Positions 1,594-21,933 of a DNA stretch of 28,609 nt are shown one piece after another. Both the position numbers and the translations under genes were made by a program. The DNA is taken from positions 1 through 28,609 of IMG/VR virus record IMGVR_UViG_3300031234_000164; one strand, written 5' to 3'. Origin of the DNA: a virus. The notes beneath the pieces are model-generated. The model did no database searches and was not told the DNA's origin. It saw nothing but the letters and a program-made list of their open reading frames with translations. The number at the start of each line of letters is the position of its first letter. The first letter of the stretch is position 1.

Positions 1594-2505
1594 TCAACCT
1601 CCGACCGTTACGATAGGTGAAAGGGAGTCGATACTGGTGGTCTCGTCGATAACACCGACCTGCGTTCCCGAGATAACCGATTGCAAGACGTACTCTGCAA
1701 GGAAGATCATGTGCGCTTCGTAGACATTGTAATCAGACTGAGACTCGTCCTTCGGAGTTGGCAGAGCAAACAGACGCAAACGTACCGACGAGGTATCTGG
1801 CAGCGCGTACCACATGTCCATATCGGTTCCGACGTTGTTTATGATTGCATCGACCACCGATGCGCGGAGACTCACGGGAGTATCGACTAAGGGAACTCCG
1901 GTATTCTGGTACGCTGAAGGGGTCCAGACAGAGACTTGAATGCGCTGCTCAAACCGGGACTGAAACTGCGTCATCGTGCCAATGGTGCCGATGTTGCAAT
2001 GCACGTTGGTCAATCCATAGATAATGACCGTAGGACCACTCTCATAGACCACCACTGAGGGGTCTGGGTAGCCCCTCAAGGCAGAGGCGAGTTGCGAAGC
2101 AATCGTGACGAGCGTATCGTATCCAAGCGACTGGTAGCCAGCGGATTGAACGCCCCGCGTCGGGTGAGAGAAGATAACGTAAAAGTTATAGAGGCCAGGA
2201 GTGCCAGAGAAGGTAATTTGCGTTGCGAGACCATCGGGCATCAGCACCATCGCGACGCTAGACGTTACCGTAGGAGGGATCAGCACCGTTTGAGTAATGC
2301 GGTCCTTCCCGCGAGGAGGGAGCCTCCGACCACCGGGTAGCGGGAAGAACGAGACTGCATACTGGTTCTGCGAAAGGATTGTAGTCAGTTCTGGTCCGGT
2401 CGGAAATCCTTGATAGCCTTGACCGGGAACCGTGATCCCCGCACTGTTAATCGCCGCCGTACACGCAAGGCCGAGAACGTCAAGGACCTGCTCGATCCGT
2501 CCCAT
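1594..2505 (-). CDS. Neck / tail-terminator-like structural protein
   Basis: The ATG at 2505 has GGGGGA about 6 nt upstream and gives 303 residues starting MGRIEQVLDVLGLACTAAIN. An upstream in-frame GTG at 2529 is possible but lies deeper in the receiver gene and lacks a clear ribosome-binding site. In the second half the segment FEQRIQVSVWTPSAYQ resembles the R-x-Q-x-[FI]-x-V-x-[VI]-W-x-P signature of head-tail joining and tail-terminator proteins. It sits just before the sheath, where such proteins are normally encoded. The first half, including VPGQGYQGFPTGPELT and a GGRRLPPRGKDR loop, was not recognised. A baseplate or tube-associated role cannot be excluded. Confidence 0.5.
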   Translation of the reverse strand: MGRIEQVLDVLGLACTAAINSAGITVPGQGYQGFPTGPELTTILSQNQYAVSFFPLPGGRRLPPRGKDRITQTVLIPPTVTSSVAMVLMPDGLATQITFSGTPGLYNFYVIFSHPTRGVQSAGYQSLGYDTLVTIASQLASALRGYPDPSVVVYESGPTVIIYGLTNVHCNIGTIGTMTQFQSRFEQRIQVSVWTPSAYQNTGVPLVDTPVSLRASVVDAIINNVGTDMDMWYALPDTSSVRLRLFALPTPKDESQSDYNVYEAHMIFLAEYVLQSVISGTQVGVIDETTSIDSLSPIVTVGG

Positions 2506-2872
2506 TAGCGTCCCCCAGGGTGAGCCCACCCGTCAGCGCGGCGATTTTCTTTCGCATATCGCCCTGCATTACTGGCTTAATGAGCACCGCAAACCCCTTA
2601 GCCTCGAACGCCTCCTTTATCGACGCGCGTGAGGTAAAGAGGAGGATGTAAAGGGCAGTATGAGCTTCACGAATCCGATCAGCAGCAATGTCACCGCCAA
2701 TCGCTCCCATTGAAATATCAAGAATAGCAATATCTGGATGGAATTGCTCGCAGAAGGCAATGGCTTCCGTTCCATTGACAGCTTCTGCGACAATCTCATG
2801 TTTTAGATTGATAAGCATTGCGCGAAGTACTTGTCGAATCTTCAGTGAGTCGTCAGCAAGTACAACGCGCAT
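2480..2872 (-). CDS. Stand-alone response-regulator receiver (REC, CheY-like) domain protein
   Basis: A 130-residue protein is almost entirely one receiver domain. The acidic pair is Asp7-Asp8 (VVLADDS). The phosphoacceptor is Asp52 (AILDISM), the switch residue is Thr80 (LLFTSRA) and the conserved Lys99-Pro100 follows (VLIKP). All residues needed for phosphotransfer from a histidine kinase are present, so it should be active. No output domain is attached; the last ~25 residues are a short polar tail. An AGGAA site lies about 6 nt before the ATG. It overlaps the next gene by 26 nt and sits among tail genes. A separate NarL-type HTH protein is encoded at 16644-16961; the two could be halves of one regulator. 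No histidine kinase is visible in the window. Confidence 0.85.
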   Translation of the reverse strand: MRVVLADDSLKIRQVLRAMLINLKHEIVAEAVNGTEAIAFCEQFHPDIAILDISMGAIGGDIAADRIREAHTALYILLFTSRASIKEAFEAKGFAVLIKPVMQGDMRKKIAALTGGLTLGDANGTDRAGP

Positions 2873-4573: not shown

Positions 4574-5968
4574 TTACGAAGGAGGGGGAAGTGTCGGAAG
4601 TGGTGCTGGATACGCAGGACCATTGAACATTACGATGCTTGGAGCATCCGTTACTGTGACAGCATTCGGAGAAATGGGGCCGGAGTTTACCCACTGGCTC
4701 TCGAACGGGTAGGTCCATTCCGTAACCGTCGAAGGGCCGAAGCCAAGACTGTACGTGATGCGAGCGATGATAGGCGTCACGATGTCGTACGCCTTAGCAT
4801 TCGTATCCCATCCGACCACGGGTTGCCACACCACCAACGCATACTGACCATTGCTCATGCAGACTCCGAAGGAGGAAATCCCAGACGTTGCCACCGCCGC
4901 CGGAACCGTGCAATTCGAGCCGATTGGCGTCGTGTCTTTGAGGATGTTCATAAACCCGGCTATTTGATACGCAGCAGGTCTCGGAGTATCGTCGTTGGAG
5001 AAAATGCCATACGTCTGACCACCGGAATCGTAGAGTGAATATATGTATGACTTCGTGATGCCCTGAGACTGATGTTCGAATATCTGACGGAGAATGTACG
5101 ATCCTTGAGCCCCTGAATCAACGTCGTTTATCGTAGTCGATGATACTTGGTATCCGAACTCTGTCGCCGCGACAGGTCTTGACACGGACGCTTGCTTTGC
5201 ATTGCAAAGATTGTACGCTACATCCGCATAGACCTGACTGCAATATCCCTGAGATCCCCAACCCGCATTCTCTGGGAAGAAGCCCGCCTCGTAATCGTGC
5301 GTGTTTCCGTAGTTGATATACGGGGAGAGGTCTCCGATATTCGCGTACGTCGCTGTTCCGCCAATAGATGGCCCGATAGCAAGCAAGGCCGAATTGTTCG
5401 ACTGAATGTATGCGTAGATCGTTTGAGCGGTCGTGGCGTCGTTTGGTGCCCAAGCACCATTGCCCGTGAGGTCCGCTTCGTTTGGTCCCTCGATTGCATC
5501 GACATCCCCAGGATTGAGGTTGGAAAGATCGCTACCTATCGTCCCAGACGAGATGAGGTTCGTTGTAAGCAAGTCGAACTTAATACCGTTCGCGCCGAGT
5601 AGGTTCATCGCGCTGATGACAGGTGCGCTTCCGGGGATGATGCTCATTCCGTCTCGGACATGGTGGATGTTTAAGTACTGGAGATTCGCTAGCAGTTGAG
5701 GGGCGTTGCTGTACTCTGTATATGACGTATGCACATTGAATCCAATTTGATCCTCGAAAGCATAGGCCCAGAGACCGGCAGTTCCACCGATGACTGTGGT
5801 AGGGTTGGTAGATATCGGAGGGCAAAAATACGGGGCAAAGAAACTGTTCAGAGCCCACCAGCATATCTCCGTACTCGGGAGATATGAAGCAGTTGCTTGC
5901 TCGCGAAACCCAACAAGTCCGAGCAACATAATGAAAAAGCAGACGATTACTTTGAGCTTTTTCATCAT
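4574..5968 (-). CDS. Secreted clan GH-A glycoside-hydrolase-like protein (paralogue 2)
   Basis: The start at ATG 5968 (or the adjacent ATG at 5965) follows an AAGGGGGA site; the product is about 464 residues. The first ~28 residues (MMKKLKVIVCFFIMLLGLVG... ATA-SY) form a Sec signal peptide. The mature part looks like a TIM-barrel glycosidase: IHHVRDGM near residue 101, EGPNE with Asn163-Glu164 as candidate acid/base, and VAATEFGY with Glu270 as candidate nucleophile, as in clan GH-A. It ends in a short proline tail. The next gene upstream (5976-8120) is a clear paralogue with the same layout. The substrate is unknown, presumably a host or environmental polysaccharide. A phage virion protein would not normally carry a Sec signal, so it may be exported from the infected or lysogenic cell. 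Confidence 0.72.
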   Translation of the reverse strand: MMKKLKVIVCFFIMLLGLVGFREQATASYLPSTEICWWALNSFFAPYFCPPISTNPTTVIGGTAGLWAYAFEDQIGFNVHTSYTEYSNAPQLLANLQYLNIHHVRDGMSIIPGSAPVISAMNLLGANGIKFDLLTTNLISSGTIGSDLSNLNPGDVDAIEGPNEADLTGNGAWAPNDATTAQTIYAYIQSNNSALLAIGPSIGGTATYANIGDLSPYINYGNTHDYEAGFFPENAGWGSQGYCSQVYADVAYNLCNAKQASVSRPVAATEFGYQVSSTTINDVDSGAQGSYILRQIFEHQSQGITKSYIYSLYDSGGQTYGIFSNDDTPRPAAYQIAGFMNILKDTTPIGSNCTVPAAVATSGISSFGVCMSNGQYALVVWQPVVGWDTNAKAYDIVTPIIARITYSLGFGPSTVTEWTYPFESQWVNSGPISPNAVTVTDAPSIVMFNGPAYPAPLPTLPPPS

Positions 5969-5975
5969 TCCCCCT

Positions 5976-8120
5976 TCATAGTGGCGGTTGAATGACAATT
6001 GTCTCTGCCACCCAGGGGGCGTAGTTGGTATTTGATAACATCACGGAGAACGCCGGAATAATTTGATTGACCGTCGTCGTATTCGCCGCCAAGTGGAAGC
6101 CATAGAAGGAGTTGAACAACCCGACGCTATGAGCGTCCATAATCCAAGACGAGCCAAACCCTGAAGGAACGGCAATGCCGTTATTCGATGACGTGCCCTG
6201 CTTCGTTGCAATTCCACATATTACCATCGAACCGGGCCTTGGTACGGTCACGGTTGGGCACGTTGAGGACTTGAAGAAGTTCTCGCTCGCAGCGAAGGTG
6301 GCAATTGGATTTGAACTGTCCACTCCATTGAAGTCGTACGACCCCCACGCTCCGGTATCGCCGCCGCTTGCAATCCATTCAATGGATGGTCCGATACCTG
6401 CTTGATTGGTGACGTATCCCTGCCAGGTCGCAAGGCCAATCTCGTTTGAATTGACAGGTGGAGAAGCGGGATAGACCTCAAGCGGATCAATAACCGAAAA
6501 TCCACCTGGCGCAAGGATAACCCTCCGCGTCGCGGAGTACTGACTCAAGGCGAAGTAGGAGACGACGAGATCCCCGTAGGGAACGACCGAGGGGAACTGT
6601 TGCCACGTCTGAACCGTGTTGCTCGGGATTTGAGCCGTTGCAGTCTGAGCCAAGGAGACCGAAGTTGGCGTCAAAGTCGGAGCCGGAGTAGGAGTAGGAA
6701 CATAGACGGGGGTCGGCGTTGGGACGGGGGTCGGTGGCGCAGTGGGCAAAGCGGGCATTGGCGTTGGGGAAGGTGGCCCATTCATAGAGATGATCGTTGG
6801 AACATCGGTCACGGGTATGCCGCTCGTTGACGCTGGAGCGTTCGACCACGAACCGTTTGCAAAGCTCCACTGCGTTACGGAACTCGGAGAGAATCCAGCG
6901 TTGAGAGTGACGGGAGTCGATATCGGGCCGAACGTATTCTGAATGAGCGTGTTCGTGTTGTAGGAGACCGCCGGTTGCCAGAGGATGAGGTCGTACTCCC
7001 CGGTGGTCTTACAGACGCCCAACGCCATCACACCGCTCGTATTCACCGTCACCGGAACGACGCAGTTTGAGATCGGAGCCGTGTCGGCCAGGATGTTCTG
7101 GAACCCGGCGATCTGAGCATACGAGGGACGTTGTGAACCGTCACTCCGCAAGAGCCCATACGTCTGACCATTCGAGTCGTCTAGCTCATAGATGTAGGAC
7201 TTTGGAACGCCTAGGATCTGGTGATAGAGGATCTGGCGCAGAATGAATGTGCCCTGCACCGCCTCAATGGACCCGTTTTGCTGGTACGGGTTGATCTCAT
7301 ACCCGAACTCGGTTGCAATGATCGGTCTCGTTTTGCTTGCCTGTTGAGCATTGCAAATATCGGTGATGAGTTGGCCGTAAATGAATCCGCAATACGACGG
7401 CCCACCGAACCCCGTGTTCTCAGGCGGGAACCCGCCCTCATAATCGTGGACGTTTCCGAAGTCCTCATACGAAGAGAGGTCGCCAATCGACGCATACGAA
7501 CTGTTGCCGGTCGCGGGGCCATACGTGAGCGCTATCGGGAAGACAATATTTCGTACGGGCCACACGATATTCGATTGCTGCCACCTGTCGAGCGAAGCCC
7601 AATTTGCAAGGTTACAGCAAATGTCAAGCTCGTTGCTATTCTCAATTGCCTCGACAACACCGGGATTTATAAGGAGCATATCTTCGATTACTTCTCCGAT
7701 AGGCTCATTGTGATTGACAATAAGGTCGGCTTTGATCCCAGCGGCTCCTAGAGAGTTGTACTCATTCGTTTCCCAGACGGCAGTCTCAAATGGTTGCATC
7801 CCATCTCTAACGTGATGGATGCGAGCAGCAACGAGTACAGCCTGGATATACGGATAGTTGGCATAATTTCCATAGTTGAGATGGATGTTGATTCCGACCG
7901 ACTCCGTAAGGTTGTACGCGCCGACTCCCGTCATCCCATTGACAATCGGAGCAAACGTGGGAACCGGACAAGGGTACCCATACGGATTCCCGTTGGCCGC
8001 ATTGTATTTATAAATGCAGGTCGTCGAGCTTGTCGTTATCGCAAGCGCCTGCTCTCTTTTCTCTAAAGGAGACCCAAGCACGAAGAAAAGAACTACACAG
8101 AAAAAGAAAACATTTTTCAT
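5976..8120 (-). CDS. Secreted clan GH-A glycoside-hydrolase-like protein with Pro-rich linker and C-terminal beta domain (paralogue 1)
   Basis: A 714-residue protein starts at ATG 8120 with a GTAGGG site 5 nt upstream. Residues 1-27 form a signal peptide (MKNVFFFCVVLFFVLG...ALA). Residues ~55-345 match the paralogue at 4574-5968: IHHVRDGM at ~101, candidate acid/base Asn163-Glu164 (in ENSNELD, not GPNE) and candidate nucleophile Glu271 (IIATEFGY). Residues ~449-488 are a PTPTP-type linker. Residues ~495-714 form a Gly/Ser-rich beta domain (e.g. VPYGDLVVSYFA) absent from the paralogue, possibly for carbohydrate or particle binding. Its stop is 8 nt before the paralogue's likely ATG at 5968. 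The two probably arose by tandem duplication. Confidence 0.75.
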   Translation of the reverse strand: MKNVFFFCVVLFFVLGSPLEKREQALAITTSSTTCIYKYNAANGNPYGYPCPVPTFAPIVNGMTGVGAYNLTESVGINIHLNYGNYANYPYIQAVLVAARIHHVRDGMQPFETAVWETNEYNSLGAAGIKADLIVNHNEPIGEVIEDMLLINPGVVEAIENSNELDICCNLANWASLDRWQQSNIVWPVRNIVFPIALTYGPATGNSSYASIGDLSSYEDFGNVHDYEGGFPPENTGFGGPSYCGFIYGQLITDICNAQQASKTRPIIATEFGYEINPYQQNGSIEAVQGTFILRQILYHQILGVPKSYIYELDDSNGQTYGLLRSDGSQRPSYAQIAGFQNILADTAPISNCVVPVTVNTSGVMALGVCKTTGEYDLILWQPAVSYNTNTLIQNTFGPISTPVTLNAGFSPSSVTQWSFANGSWSNAPASTSGIPVTDVPTIISMNGPPSPTPMPALPTAPPTPVPTPTPVYVPTPTPAPTLTPTSVSLAQTATAQIPSNTVQTWQQFPSVVPYGDLVVSYFALSQYSATRRVILAPGGFSVIDPLEVYPASPPVNSNEIGLATWQGYVTNQAGIGPSIEWIASGGDTGAWGSYDFNGVDSSNPIATFAASENFFKSSTCPTVTVPRPGSMVICGIATKQGTSSNNGIAVPSGFGSSWIMDAHSVGLFNSFYGFHLAANTTTVNQIIPAFSVMLSNTNYAPWVAETIVIQPPL

Positions 8121-16643: not shown

Positions 16644-16961
16644 TTACGTTGAACTTACGCAATTGTGCGATCTGGCATACGCGATAGGCTCTGCACAATG
16701 AGCACAGTTCAACGGATGATAGTCAGCCGGAAGGACGTTAATTTTGTCTACCGACTCGTCGGACATGAGCCCCTGTCTCCACGCGTATATCGCCACTTCA
16801 CAACGACTCTTCATTTCAAGTTTCACGAACACGGAAGAGATGTGGTTCTTTATGGTTTTCTCGGAAAGAACCAGCTTGCTTGCTATGTCCTTGTTAGCAA
16901 GTCCACTGCCGATGAGACAGATAACTTGAAGCTCTCGCGTCGTTAGGCACGCACTCCTCAA
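16644..16961 (-). CDS. Stand-alone LuxR/NarL-type HTH protein with C-terminal Cys/His cluster
   Basis: TTG at 16961 follows AGGTGAG at the end of the scaffold gene; another TTG at 16979 is possible but has no ribosome-binding site. The 105-residue product opens with a full LuxR/NarL DNA-binding domain (residues ~6-66): LTTRELQVICLIGSGLANKD, IASKLVLSEKTIKNHISSVF and AIYAWRQGLM. The recognition helix is about residues 33-48. No receiver domain precedes it. After a linker the end has Cys86-x2-Cys89 and His99-x-Cys101, possibly a small zinc site not usual for this family. It lies between scaffold and capsid, so it could regulate late genes or the host. The free receiver protein at 2480-2872 is a possible partner. 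Confidence 0.8.
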   Translation of the reverse strand: MRSACLTTRELQVICLIGSGLANKDIASKLVLSEKTIKNHISSVFVKLEMKSRCEVAIYAWRQGLMSDESVDKINVLPADYHPLNCAHCAEPIAYARSHNCVSST

Positions 16962-16962
16962 C

Positions 16963-17874
16963 TCACCTACCGCCGCCAAATCTCATTGACTGCTTGTAGG
17001 CAACCATCGCTTCCCGCCGCGCCTTCGGATCTAACGTACGAAGATCAGGAAGTCCGCCAGTTGCCTTAGAGCCAGAAGCTCCGCCAGCGGTTGACGCTCC
17101 GGTGGACGTAGCATTCTTTTTCGTAGCGTCATCGGTCTGCGTATCGGTAGTCGTCTGGGTTCCCTTGTCGGCAGTTTGAGTGCCCTTATCGGTCGCCTGA
17201 GTACCCTTGTCATCCGCATGAGTCTCAGTCGTTTTAACCTCAGTCTCGGTAGCTTGCACAGGTTGTTTGAAAAACTCCTTGTGCGCTTCTTTCCATTGAG
17301 CGAGGTTCTCTCGAATCCCGATAGCATCTCCCGTTTTTGGGTCGATCTTCGCTTTGTCTCCAACGTCAGATAAGAAGATGTCCACAATTCTCTTGTGGAT
17401 GACACCTTCGGCCTGCAATGCCTCAATGGCTTCAGCACGTATCACACGTCTGTCGGCAACATTGAGTCTGCCTTCCAACGTCTCCGCATCCTTGCGTCGC
17501 TTCTGGTTCTCTTTGTTGAGTTCTCCGATCCGCTCTTTTGCTGCTTCAGCAGCAGTTCGAGAATCTTCTAACTCGCGTCGCAGTTCGTAAATTTCCTCAA
17601 CGCCACTAACACCATTGGAGCTTCCATTGGTGTTAACGACATCGCGAGACTCTCGGCTTTCTCGGCTTTGAGTACGTGTCTGCGTCCGCTTTGGCGACGG
17701 TTTAGCGACCGTCGCAGTAGTCGTGCTTGATTCGCTAGAGGTTTCGCCATCGCTGGCAGAATCGCCATCGGTGCCACTAGCTTGAGTTGCACCATCTCCG
17801 GTGCCTTCCCCGTCAAACAAGTACATATTGAACGACGGAACCCATTGATTCGAGGTTGTGTAATCCGTAGACAA
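16963..17874 (-). CDS. Capsid scaffolding protein
   Basis: TTG at 17874 with GAGGAG 5 nt upstream gives 303 residues. The N-terminus (MSTDYTTSNQWVPSFNMYLF) shares QWVPxFNxYLF with the capsid protein. Then come an acidic Ser/Thr/Gly-rich region (to ~75), a long charged coiled coil at ~95-150 (EEIYELRRELEDSRTAAEAA), a conserved-looking middle (EALQAEGVIHKRIVDIFL) and tandem DKGTQ repeats at ~222-243. The basic C-terminus (DPKARREAMVAYKQSMRFGG) is as expected for a capsid-binding tail. Length, composition and position between portal and capsid fit a scaffold that directs shell assembly and then leaves or is cleaved. The call is from architecture, not from a sequence family. Confidence 0.75.
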   Translation of the reverse strand: MSTDYTTSNQWVPSFNMYLFDGEGTGDGATQASGTDGDSASDGETSSESSTTTATVAKPSPKRTQTRTQSRESRESRDVVNTNGSSNGVSGVEEIYELRRELEDSRTAAEAAKERIGELNKENQKRRKDAETLEGRLNVADRRVIRAEAIEALQAEGVIHKRIVDIFLSDVGDKAKIDPKTGDAIGIRENLAQWKEAHKEFFKQPVQATETEVKTTETHADDKGTQATDKGTQTADKGTQTTTDTQTDDATKKNATSTGASTAGGASGSKATGGLPDLRTLDPKARREAMVAYKQSMRFGGGR

Positions 17875-17919: not shown

Positions 17920-19611
17920 CTACTTTGGTGGGCCAGCCGGTTTAGGATCATGCTTCGCTTGAATAGCGGCAGTCTGATCAACAGTGTCGAGTTCGGTCTG
18001 ACGTTTGTCTTCTTGCTCTTTTTGGATCTTTGCAAGTTCTTCTGTTGGCTCTAGCACGTCGAACAACGCAGAGGCATTGTCCACGGCGGTCTCCTGGCTA
18101 ATTAGGCCACCTTCAAGAGCCGTTGTCTCCGCTTGAACCTCTGCGAGCTTATCTGCCCCGACAAGTTGGTAGTAGTCCGGCCAATTCGCTTCGAGAATCG
18201 AATCAGGATTGGGCTTTACCTTCGTTTTAAGGGACGGTAACGCCACGTCAACTGCGTTAAAGAGCCGCATACCAAGACGCAACACGGCAAATCCAGCAGT
18301 CTCTCCAACGGTCATACGAAGGATGTCCGCAAGGCTTATCTGGCCTTGGTTGAGCATCTTCATCGCAACGCTGCTCATCGCTCCCATCGCCTTCACGTCA
18401 GGAACGATCCTCGACATTGCTCCAGTAGCACGAGCCTTGTCGCTTAGAACCGAGATGTACGTTTCAATCGCAATCTTAAGACCCTCGCCTTTGATTTCGA
18501 GAAACTTAGCATCTCCGCCAGCTTGAGTGATGACATCCGAAGCTGTTCCGCCAATTGCCGTATCGTCGTCATAGTCTCCAAACGCTCCACCGCCCGCTTG
18601 GGCCTTGTCGAGAATTTGGGCCATCTGTGGATCGCCCGTATAATCAAACGCACGTCCTGTCTGCGACAGAGTTCGATCAATGCGAAATTGATAGTTAATC
18701 AACTTCTCGTCAAAGATCGGCATTCCATCAGGATAGAGCTTGTTATCCAGGGGAAGTGGAACTTCCCAAACTGCCGGGACAAAGCCAAGAGAATGAGAGA
18801 ATGTCCGGTCTGGATCAACCTTCCACTTGTCTTCAGACCAATCCGCGCGTTCATAAATCCAACGAGGAGTCGGAAGAAACCAGGACTCACCATCCGCATC
18901 GAGGACAATGCGAAGCACCCAGTCGTTCGATGGGGTAATGGAGTATGCGTTAGACTTCACGCGATTGAGGCCGCGTCGTCCAGCCTTGTCAGCAGACCAT
19001 ATCGCCTTGAGGTCTTCAATGTCATAGCCGTCAGCGGCCAAGAAGTCCTCACCGATGAACCAAATCCGCTCGACCGACTTCAGTTCGCCAGGTGCAGTAC
19101 GATGGAATATCGGTTTGCATTCGTAAGAAGGCCAAACCTCGAAGTGGTACGTCCCCTTGCCCTTTGGCACGAAGCCGCCCTCTGCGTCGCCCTCTGATTC
19201 GCCCAACACGCGACCCACGATACACGTCGAGCCAATCGACGCCTCCCACGTTGACCGGATCATCAGAAGCCAGTAGCTGGCGTCCCGAATGAAAGCCGCG
19301 ATCCATTCGGTAGTAGCGTCGTCGTCACGAGCCTTCAGGTTCGGCCTACGAGCCTCACCGAAGAGCATGGAGCACATGTCGCGGGTTGCTTCAGCAGGAA
19401 GCCCGTCCTCGACCGCCGCCCGCCGGTCGTTCAAAAGGATGCGCTCACCGTCCATGCGGGCTCCGTGGCGCTCCTGCGAGAACCCAGAGCCAAGGTGAGA
19501 GTAGAGCTTCCCGGTCAGAGCCCTATTGAGTGCTTCGAGCCGCTTCTGTCGATGCGTCCAACGCGTAGATTGAGTCGAGGATATAGCCGATTGGAATGCT
19601 ACGAAATCCAT
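17920..19611 (-). CDS. Portal protein
   Basis: ATG 19611 has GAGG 7 nt upstream (TTG 19617 is an alternative), giving 563 residues, a usual portal length. It lies between the terminase and scaffold genes. The N-terminal half has long mixed segments (LEALNRALTGKLYSHLGSGF, EYFEVW-like strand WPSYECKPIF). The middle reads LINYQFRIDRTLSQTGRAFD. A helical stretch (ISVLSDKARATGAMSRIVPD, then SSVAMKMLNQGQISLADILR) corresponds to the stem and crown helices of SPP1/HK97-type portals. The C-terminus is a charged helix. Portals form the dodecameric vertex through which DNA is packaged. Identification rests on gene order plus overall layout. Confidence 0.75.
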   Translation of the reverse strand: MDFVAFQSAISSTQSTRWTHRQKRLEALNRALTGKLYSHLGSGFSQERHGARMDGERILLNDRRAAVEDGLPAEATRDMCSMLFGEARRPNLKARDDDATTEWIAAFIRDASYWLLMIRSTWEASIGSTCIVGRVLGESEGDAEGGFVPKGKGTYHFEVWPSYECKPIFHRTAPGELKSVERIWFIGEDFLAADGYDIEDLKAIWSADKAGRRGLNRVKSNAYSITPSNDWVLRIVLDADGESWFLPTPRWIYERADWSEDKWKVDPDRTFSHSLGFVPAVWEVPLPLDNKLYPDGMPIFDEKLINYQFRIDRTLSQTGRAFDYTGDPQMAQILDKAQAGGGAFGDYDDDTAIGGTASDVITQAGGDAKFLEIKGEGLKIAIETYISVLSDKARATGAMSRIVPDVKAMGAMSSVAMKMLNQGQISLADILRMTVGETAGFAVLRLGMRLFNAVDVALPSLKTKVKPNPDSILEANWPDYYQLVGADKLAEVQAETTALEGGLISQETAVDNASALFDVLEPTEELAKIQKEQEDKRQTELDTVDQTAAIQAKHDPKPAGPPK

Positions 19612-19626
19612 CAGCAATCCTCAGTT

Positions 19627-20352
19627 TCATGTAGATATGAATATGTTACGCACCTTATCAAAGATGCCAAGTTGAGTTCCTGCGGTAATCATATACCACT
19701 TCTTTCTATTACACGGCCCGCAGAGCGGCTGTATATTCCAGATATAGTCTGATCCGCCATGATGTTGGGATATGATATGATCCTTAGTTAGCTTTCGCTT
19801 TTGTTTGCAATTAGAACAAAGGTGCTTATGGGATTCCTTTAAAGTCTCCCATTCCTCGCTAGTATGCGACCCTAAAACTCCTGCCTTCCTGGCACGACGA
19901 AGTGCATAGTTTATAGCCGACTTCGCCTTACCTTCAGGAGTCCTCACCCAATTGTAACTATAAATACGCTTCTTCTCGATAGATTCTGGCTTATCGGCGT
20001 ACTTTCGCTTACGTGCTCTTTGGCGTTCTGGTTTTTCAAGCATCTCTCTCTTTTGACGCTTACGAGAATTTGATCGCGACTTCTCAATATCCAAACGATA
20101 ATGCTCGTGATTGTACTCTTTAGCCTCTTCTTTGTGGGAGACATAATACAGGCGATCCGCCACCCTTTTCTTATCCTTATTGTCTACAACCCATTTTCGA
20201 GTCTTAGCGCAAACACAAGGTTTACAGTCACTGGCGCGACCGAATCTGCCACTTTTATCAAGGTGAAAATCTTCAAGAGGTTTCGTTTCATTGCAAATTC
20301 CGCATTGCTTAGTACCGTCAAACGGCTTCAGTTTCGGAATATACTTCTTCTT
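19627..20352 (-). CDS. HNH homing endonuclease, reached by -1 frameshift from the upstream zinc-ribbon frame
   Basis: The frame runs from 20361 to 19627. Its only standard internal start is GTG 20163, which would cut off a domain, so entry by frameshift at 20352 is proposed. The first ~50 residues form a zinc ribbon (CGICNETKPLEDFH ... DCKPC) typical of phage HNH enzymes. A basic helical linker follows. The HNH core is CSNCKQKRKLTKDHIISQHH, then WNIQPLCGPCNRKKW, with catalytic His in DHI and two Cys pairs for zinc. With the upstream 43 codons the product would be 284 residues. The segment is visibly AT-richer than its neighbours, sits between terminase and portal genes, and seems to have its own promoter, all consistent with a mobile homing gene. 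GTG 20163 as a truncated start is the alternative. Confidence 0.75.
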   Translation of the reverse strand, partial: KKKYIPKLKPFDGTKQCGICNETKPLEDFHLDKSGRFGRASDCKPCVCAKTRKWVVDNKDKKRVADRLYYVSHKEEAKEYNHEHYRLDIEKSRSNSRKRQKREMLEKPERQRARKRKYADKPESIEKKRIYSYNWVRTPEGKAKSAINYALRRARKAGVLGSHTSEEWETLKESHKHLCSNCKQKRKLTKDHIISQHHGGSDYIWNIQPLCGPCNRKKWYMITAGTQLGIFDKVRNIFIST

Positions 20353-20480
20353 AAAAAAGCTTTATTATACGAAGAAGTGCATACCTTACAGTAAGTTTGC
20401 CTTCCGGTCTTGTTCCTTGAGTTTTTAGAAAAGAAAGACTCATCTTTCTCTTGTGAACACCTATGGCAATACAGTATCAT
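20328..20480 (-). CDS. Zinc-ribbon frame of the HNH gene (zero frame, 50 aa)
   Basis: ATG 20480 opens a 50-codon frame ending at TGA 20328-20330. It encodes MILYCHRCSQEKDESFFSKN..., with Cys5-x2-Cys8 and Cys31-x2-Cys34. That is a zinc ribbon of the same kind as the one at the start of the HNH frame (F-x-K-x-x-x-x-x-G-x-x-x-x-C-K-x-C). The two frames overlap at T-TTT-TTA. Read together they make a double zinc-ribbon plus HNH protein; read separately this is a short zinc-binding peptide. No Shine-Dalgarno site is visible. The predicted promoter leaves only a few bases before the ATG, suggesting a near-leaderless message. It could also be the 5' piece of a gene broken by a single-base indel. Confidence 0.65.
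   Translation of the reverse strand: MILYCHRCSQEKDESFFSKNSRNKTGRQTYCKVCTSSYNKAFLRRSIFRN
20352..20358 (-). promoter_or_regulatory. Candidate -1 ribosomal frameshift site (T TTT TTA)
   Basis: In the zero frame the codons read GCT TTT TTA, a textbook X-XXY-YYZ slippery heptamer. A one-base backward slip continues as AAG AAG AAG TAT in the HNH frame. Starting 11 nt downstream, ATTCCG pairs with CGGAAT and encloses CCGT-TTG-ACGG, a possible stimulatory structure. The spacer is slightly longer than usual. Confidence 0.5.
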
Positions 20481-20489
20481 AGTCCGTCA

Positions 20490-20518
20490 AGTATAGCACA
20501 CCCTGCGTCTACCGTGAA
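20490..20518 (-). promoter_or_regulatory. Predicted sigma-70-type promoter for the HNH insertion
   Basis: Minus strand: TTCACG (20518-20513), 17-nt spacer, TATACT (20495-20490) with an extended TG-C before the -10. It overlaps the 3' end of the large terminase gene. Transcription would start near 20483, leaving about 3 nt before ATG 20480. Confidence 0.4.
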
Positions 20519-21933
20519 GTATTCATACTAAAACGAAATCGCTCCTCAATGGCAGCTTCATAGCTGATTCCGTAACGAAGGCAGTCCCCGAGATGAGTAA
20601 GTTTTTTACTATTCGGAATGACCTCACCCGGCTTTGGCTTTGCAATATCGAAAATTGTTGTTCCGGGCTTCCACATCATTTTTTCAAGGTCAAGCGCAAG
20701 CCATATTGTGTTTTTATTTTTCACAATGACAACCCCGAGGTTCCCTTGCGAGTCCTCTAGTTGACGGTTTGCGTCTGCGGAGCTGTCTATGTGAAGTGGG
20801 TTTCCAGGATTGATTCGAGTCGTACCCTTGAAACCGAGTCGTGCCATCTCTGCTCGCAAAGCGGCCCAGTCTGACACGCCAGTTTGTCTGGATTGTTGAT
20901 TTCCAGCAGCGTCACCGTAGAGTATGATCTCGTTTCGCATTGCTATAGACGTAGCTTCCTTGCGATTCAACAATTCTTTAGGAGCGTCACTAATCAGCGC
21001 CGATTCAATACGAATGCAGTCGTGTATAAACATTACGACTTTTTGATAACCAGGAGCGTTAATACGTCTCCACTGGAAAAGAATAGAACACAAGGGGTCA
21101 AGGTTAAAATCGTGAGACCAACAAAGAGGCAGTTGTGGATCATATCTTAATCGCGGCAGGCCACGCTTCATTGCTTCCTTGTCGTCTATGCAATGCTTCT
21201 CACGATTAAAACGACGGAATACCTGCCCGCGACCTAAGTCGAGAAACTCACCCATTAACTCTGCGCGAGCGATGTCGGGGTCGTACGATTCTTCCATTGT
21301 CTGAATGTACTTGTCAGGCAAAAATGGATTGTCGTATGTCGTTGCGGTAAACAACTTAATTGGTATTTTGCTGCTTATTGGATCAGGTTCGTGAGTTTGT
21401 TCGTATAGCCAGTGTGAATGTGAATGCGGTGGGTTTGCTGTAATAAATATCTGTAATTTCATATCGGGGTAGACTTGACGTTGCAATGCAGTACCGCGTA
21501 GACGACCAATTACTTTGTCGTAAGATTCCTTTCCCCAGAACTGGCTTTCATCCAACCAGCATACCGCTATTTCGAGGGACTTCCAATTTATGTCTTGATC
21601 AACAGACCTGACACGTATCAATGTATTAAGTTTCGGGAACATTATAGTCTTATCGTAACGAACTCGATCAATATATTGGAATTGCGGATATTTCGGCAGC
21701 CAAACGTCATTAAGTCGCTCGAAAAACGTATGCAGCGTGCCGCTTTTTAATTGGTCATAAGTATTTGAAAATATGTAATGAGGTGCTTTTGGATACTTGG
21801 CAAGTGATGTGAGGATCTTGTCCGTAGCAACCATCGTCTTACCAGTTGCCAGGCCTCCTATAAAAGCAATTGGCGAATCTTCACAATGATAAAATTCGTC
21901 CTGTACGGGAAGATGTTCCAAAAGCACGGGCAT
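20509..21933 (-). CDS. terL: Terminase large subunit (packaging ATPase/nuclease)
   Basis: ATG 21933 has AGGA 8 nt upstream; 474 residues is a normal length. The N-terminal ATPase has a Walker A at 26-33 (GGLATGKT, a variant of G-x-x-G-x-G-K-[ST]), Walker B with Asp128-Glu129 (AVCWLDE) and a coupling motif FITANPP at ~163. The C-terminal RNase-H-like nuclease has candidate metal ligands Asp275 (CWSHDFN), Asp341 (ILYGDAAGN) and the Asp of HLGDCLRYG near residue 454. The enzyme cuts concatemeric DNA and pumps it through the portal. Unusually, the small-terminase candidate is about 6 kb away. The HNH insertion follows immediately, a common homing position. Confidence 0.93.
   Translation of the reverse strand: MPVLLEHLPVQDEFYHCEDSPIAFIGGLATGKTMVATDKILTSLAKYPKAPHYIFSNTYDQLKSGTLHTFFERLNDVWLPKYPQFQYIDRVRYDKTIMFPKLNTLIRVRSVDQDINWKSLEIAVCWLDESQFWGKESYDKVIGRLRGTALQRQVYPDMKLQIFITANPPHSHSHWLYEQTHEPDPISSKIPIKLFTATTYDNPFLPDKYIQTMEESYDPDIARAELMGEFLDLGRGQVFRRFNREKHCIDDKEAMKRGLPRLRYDPQLPLCWSHDFNLDPLCSILFQWRRINAPGYQKVVMFIHDCIRIESALISDAPKELLNRKEATSIAMRNEIILYGDAAGNQQSRQTGVSDWAALRAEMARLGFKGTTRINPGNPLHIDSSADANRQLEDSQGNLGVVIVKNKNTIWLALDLEKMMWKPGTTIFDIAKPKPGEVIPNSKKLTHLGDCLRYGISYEAAIEERFRFSMNTSR

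Follow-up and report, generated by a model that had tools for sequence, protein, structure and literature searches.

Does the HNH endonuclease gene of this virus make one protein from two reading frames by programmed −1 frameshifting, or are the two frames the pieces of a gene that was once intact? The stretch of DNA analysed here (the window) comprises 28,609 bases, which is one whole IMG/VR virus record, and its genes lie mostly on the minus strand. According to the original prediction, a −1 slip at T TTT TTA joins two overlapping frames into a full-length nuclease. We therefore consider the frames, the heptamer at their overlap, the relatives of the encoded protein and the other copies of the virus.

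The two frames and their domains

Frame A is a 50-codon open frame on the minus strand (20331–20480; ATG at 20480, stop TGA at 20330–20328) that encodes the first Cys4 zinc ribbon (CHRC...CKVC), and PHROG endonuclease/HNH profiles match its residues 4–44. Frame B, also on the minus strand (19627–20361; stop at 19629–19627), runs for 244 codons without a stop and encodes the second Cys4 ribbon (CGIC...CKPC), a basic linker and a C-terminal HNH nuclease domain (19699–19818, minus strand; P0001 residues 182–221). This domain scores 35.5 bits against the Pfam HNH family (PF01844), above the curated cut-off of 21.4. The match to Recombination endonuclease VII (PF02945), at 18.2 bits, stays under the curated cut-off of 23.6. 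PHROG 1035, annotated as 'endonuclease VII', is matched at 3.1e-23, and among PDB chains the HNH endonuclease 4h9d matches the window HNH protein with an E-value of 2.7e-4. The frames, both on the minus strand, are thus present as originally described, each with its Cys4 ribbon, and a −1 slip would indeed join them, in the register and with the length of 284 residues that had been predicted.

In the split gene the two ribbons remain intact, as do the HNH residues. Within frame B, no ATG, GTG or TTG precedes the GTG at 20163, which itself lies downstream of the second ribbon, and this lack of an ordinary start suggests that the pieces were once one gene. At the end of frame A is a CTGA overlap (20328–20331, minus strand), in which a CTG of frame B (20331–20329) lies over the frame A stop TGA (20330–20328); as a point of reinitiation it is possible but weak.

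Profiles from Pfam and PHROG place the gene between those of the terminase large subunit, its upstream neighbour (20509–21933, minus strand; Pfam Terminase_3, E = 4e-17; PHROG terminase large subunit, E = 9.2e-33), and of the portal protein downstream (17920–19617, minus strand; PHROG portal, E = 5.6e-8). It is free-standing and next to an essential phage gene, as homing endonuclease genes are. A sigma-70-like site with a TG before the −10 element (20518–20490, minus strand) ends 9 bases ahead of the ATG; judged by this match to consensus, the HNH gene may have its own promoter. By eye, no further obvious frame break is present among the larger window genes.

Elsewhere in the window, a lone response-regulator receiver domain (2480–2872, minus strand; PF00072, E = 2.4e-16) is found among the phage late genes, and a lone LuxR-type helix-turn-helix (16644–16979, minus strand; PF00196, E = 1e-17) adjoins the major head protein gene. 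Together they look like one response regulator divided over two distant genes. Two adjoining large proteins (4574–5998 and 5976–8120, minus strand) appear paralogous by eye, sharing for example HHVRDGM stretches; neither has a Pfam match, and their starts resemble signal peptides.

The heptamer and its surroundings

The heptamer TTTTTTA is present in the frame overlap at the predicted coordinates (20352–20358, minus strand); divided into the codons of frame A it is T TTT TTA, the correct −1 register, and a slip at this site enters frame B. Its T6 is the longest homopolymer in the gene. When the gene was shuffled with its dinucleotides preserved, 222 of 5000 shuffles carried an in-frame X_XXY_YYZ where both frames are open. 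Across the 14 larger window genes, 6 of 5918 codons begin such an in-frame heptamer, or about 1% for ten codons. For a break at a random position, the coincidence would therefore amount to 1–4%; this figure does not apply if homopolymers attract breaks. Indels do favour homopolymers. Moreover, a longer T run in the right register that loses one base leaves a remainder reading T TTT TTA, so that the heptamer may be a by-product of the break; in that case programming would be favoured by its register alone, a one-in-three chance in our own reckoning. Transcriptional slippage at the T6 run was set aside, as a run of this length is probably too short.

Downstream of the heptamer lies a possible but marginal nested stem (20297–20340, minus strand), with outer arms ATTCCG (20340–20335) and CGGAAT (20302–20297) and inner arms CCGT (20325–20322) and ACGG (20318–20315). 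The arms of the predicted stem are thus present, and ATTCCG begins 11 nt after the heptamer as had been noted, but the structure itself proved less firm. The 71 nt past the heptamer fold with −14.4 kcal/mol (z = −1.93), and 11 of 200 shuffles fold equally well; extending the stretch to 111 nt removes the signal (z = +0.16). In a re-run in which the target itself had z = −2.0, a value this low or lower was reached by 6 of the 87 stretches (71 nt each) taken along the gene. Inspection by eye of the 40 nt upstream of the heptamer revealed no Shine-Dalgarno-like stretch at a distance of 10–14 nt.

Relatives encode the protein in a single frame

IMG/VR, GTDB genomes and phage records were searched for loci with HNH similarity. 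In two of the searches for relatives the 80 matches with the best E-values were kept; as this selects for long matches without a break, a later search was run with the HNH part only. In total 207 loci entered the survey, and 60 collapsed as repeats to leave 147 distinct loci. The survey left out L001, L002, L105 and L178, which are the window or its near-identical contig, as well as L008–L012, L014, L016–L018, L023, L024 and L122–L125. Eight loci (L025, L035, L038, L052, L056, L060, L074 and L128) had been fetched twice and are counted under another number, and six (L235–L240) were fetched later and stand outside the 147. Ribbons were detected with a profile built on 22 ribbons, including the two of the window, at cuts of 15 bits (used for the count over the 147 loci) and 10 bits.

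At 15 bits, the HNH frame holds at least two ribbons in 15 of the 147 loci, one in 33 and none in 99. All 15 multi-ribbon relatives consist of one open frame. The same is true of the 20 multi-ribbon loci listed at 10 bits (20/20). Of these, L108, L132 and L146 are duplicates; L176 drops below two ribbons at 15 bits, and so does L006, in which the Cys pair of the HNH accounts for the second match. In each of the six loci fetched later, the ribbon also lies within one open frame, of 176–217 codons. An off-frame ribbon match of 11.5 bits located 3′ of the HNH in L057 was taken as noise, and L120, considered as a lone relative of the first ribbon, was uninformative, with no HNH seen downstream in the frames printed. 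Between the first and second ribbon, an in-frame X_XXY_YYZ occurs in only two of the 15 multi-ribbon relatives, as TTTTTTT in L143 and CCCTTTA in L020, and the frames of both are unbroken. Conservation of the heptamer in homologous HNH genes, proposed as a check of the original prediction, is thus not borne out, nor is that of the split. Those multi-ribbon relatives that were aligned with the window protein are about 28–35% identical to it, and at this distance a heptamer private to the window virus is conceivable.

Closest in layout are the proteins of the Vibrio phages 501E54-1 (OX241455), vB_VibM_10AMN (OR472329) and vB_CoeS_P1 (PV206818) (loci L019, L020 and L021), which have the same order of parts as the joined window protein: two Cys4 ribbons whose first cysteines are 55 residues apart in all three and in the window, a basic linker and a C-terminal HNH-type domain, in a similar total length. 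In vB_CoeS_P1 the HNH gene adjoins that of the terminase large subunit, as it does in the window. Unlike the window gene, the three Vibrio phage genes are each one open frame. They are 28–30% identical to it, and the nuclease part at their C-terminus gives a poor alignment and resembles a different HNH subtype. The relative L056/L127, from IMG/VR virus contigs, is 35% identical and aligns over both ribbons, the linker and the HNH domain; its linker ahead of the second ribbon (DG.K.C) aligns with frame B of the window. These single-frame relatives indicate that the two frames of the window descend from one gene, and the view that they form one double-ribbon HNH protein is borne out by relatives of the same layout.

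Among the 99 loci without a ribbon in the HNH frame are two bacterial MAG contigs, one of Rubrobacteraceae (L168, 1082–1728) and one of Chthonomonas (L177, 1169–1686), in which ribbon and HNH lie in different frames. Neither has an in-frame X_XXY_YYZ in its upstream frame, so that frame breaks without slippery sites do occur among these ribbon-HNH genes. Among the loci seen, a split at a heptamer is private to the window. Programmed −1 frameshifting finds no support in these results, since the multi-ribbon homologues found are single-frame and mostly without an in-frame heptamer, the outcome that had been named as counting against the original prediction, and since both other split relatives lack such a heptamer. 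The mycobacteriophages ET08 and Perseus had been candidates for further broken HNH genes and were rejected; their HNH genes (L122, 692–1201; L124, 698–1192) are intact and merely unannotated.

As a separate observation, ribbon endonuclease genes recur adjoining terminase. In L235, L236 and L237, around positions 1426–2400, such a gene lies directly 5′ of a frame that by eye is terminase-like, as in L021.

Other copies of the virus

A virus contig of a different data set, IMGVR_UViG_3300030399_000208 (L002), is nearly identical to the window: over 3460 nt (window positions 20089–16630) it agrees at 99.97%, with 1 mismatch and no gap. It could not serve as a decisive second copy because it begins at window position 20089, inside the HNH gene and 263 nt downstream of the heptamer. 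That it ends there might reflect a mixed population at the site. No second sequence across the T run was found among the contigs searched: blastn of phage records with the gene region gave no match, a DNA pattern with variable run length gave 0 matches in IMG/VR, and the ribbon-1 search returned no other copy of the window virus. The search of genome contigs with P0001 returned no relative either. A terminase protein search of the IMG/VR viral contigs likewise yielded no relative, and hence no relative with an empty site.

Origin of the split

We consider it probable, at roughly 70%, that this was once an intact double-ribbon HNH gene, of the homing endonuclease type, and that an indel arising either in the virus or during assembly broke it; slight, incidental slippage may accompany the break. 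The ancestral gene would have been read in one frame. A one-base change in the length of the T run, either a real recent mutation in the virus or a slip of metagenome assembly, would then have parted the first ribbon from the remainder of the protein, and the slippery heptamer would be a leftover of that change. Full-length protein would then be made in small amounts at most, through incidental −1 slippage at U UUU UUA. 'Savior' indels with low compensatory frameshifting are described in an excerpt of PMC5009743, which makes a little leakage plausible without programming. The indel, like the homing role, is our inference; it agrees with the single-frame state of all 15 multi-ribbon relatives, the identical spacing in the Vibrio phages, the two relatives broken without a slippery site, the location of the break in the longest homopolymer of the gene, and a frame B without an ordinary start before its ribbon. 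Breaks of this kind have precedents. According to the portions of PMC10448857 consulted, frameshifts make the homing endonuclease genes of phage ICP1 unstable, and gp115-gp116 is an HNH homing endonuclease gene that a frameshift has split into two frames and that the authors treat as inactivated; such genes are also said to lie near terminase genes. Unlike in the window, the DNA-binding part of gp115-gp116 is a C-terminal AP2 domain, and those portions make no mention of a slippery heptamer. Among Skunavirus HNH genes, 56 of 268 are incomplete remnants according to an excerpt of PMC12724721. Against the indel stand the exact coincidence of the break with a heptamer whose register suits a −1 slip, as would result in one of three registers (our own reckoning), the intact ribbons and HNH residues with 244 codons free of stops, the lack by eye of other frame breaks in the larger genes, and the coverage of the T run by one sequence, L002 starting downstream of it.

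If the heptamer is instead a working signal, T TTT TTA aided by the stem would give the 284-residue HNH protein at low dose and otherwise the 50-residue single ribbon. We regard this as unlikely, even though the heptamer is in the right register, with a chance of 1–4% for such a site in the overlap, a stem (z = −1.93) follows about 7–11 nt downstream, and both halves are intact with frame B lacking an ordinary start. The single-frame relatives and the two split genes without a heptamer weigh against it, as do a stem that is not robust and the missing Shine-Dalgarno-like stretch. In E. coli, moreover, ribosomes shift far less readily on U_UUU_UUA than on A_AAA_AAG, as stated in the excerpt of PMC5009743. 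Like the −1 cassettes of dnaX, tail assembly chaperones and IS elements, the window has an X_XXY_YYZ at the overlap of two frames; unlike them, it has no conserved heptamer, no upstream stimulator that we could see, a weak stem and relatives in one frame. A switch private to this lineage, in which the 50-residue ribbon peptide is the default and few ribosomes make the nuclease so that a toxic cutter is kept low, strikes us as quite unlikely; under it, the zinc-ribbon peptide could bind the target DNA itself. We give very little credence to two separate polypeptides, one the ribbon peptide and the other an HNH protein with a single ribbon, started by termination-reinitiation at the CTGA, from the CTG at 20331. 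The stop of frame A and this CTG overlap by two bases, and single-ribbon HNH relatives are common (33 of 147 loci), but CTG is a poor start codon, no Shine-Dalgarno-like stretch is visible by eye ahead of it, and relatives with an aligned linker carry the first ribbon in the same frame.

A question compatible with any of these readings is whether the protein aids the terminase in DNA packaging, as do those Skunavirus HNH proteins whose genes lie between terminase and portal, rather than serving in homing. The window gene has exactly this place between the large terminase and portal genes, as have the HrdP/GVE2-like (PMC12724721) and HK97 (PMC10448857) packaging HNH genes, and all 89 GVE2-like Skunavirus HNH genes are located there and read as packaging proteins (excerpt of PMC12724721). 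We nevertheless hold a packaging role to be improbable. Unlike the packaging HNH proteins, that of the window has two N-terminal zinc ribbons and homing-type endonuclease VII/HNH profiles in PHROG; related ribbon-HNH genes adjoin many different genes; breakage of a packaging gene would carry a cost; and phmmer (E up to 10) returned 4h9d as the one match among PDB sequences, with no GVE2 HNH chain.

Judged by titles and the beginnings of abstracts, none of the papers retrieved in literature searches reports frameshifting in homing or HNH endonuclease genes, and in the part of PMC10885494 considered, homing endonucleases come up only as a source of inteins. Programmed frameshifting, if true, would be a way of controlling the dose of a selfish nuclease that has no report in the literature so surveyed. 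If the gene was broken by an indel, as we favour, it would be one more example of how such HNH genes break. A homopolymer in the right register needs only to be shortened by one base to read X_XXY_YYZ automatically, and heptamers at frame junctions in contigs should therefore be treated with caution, as they can be by-products of changes in homopolymer length.
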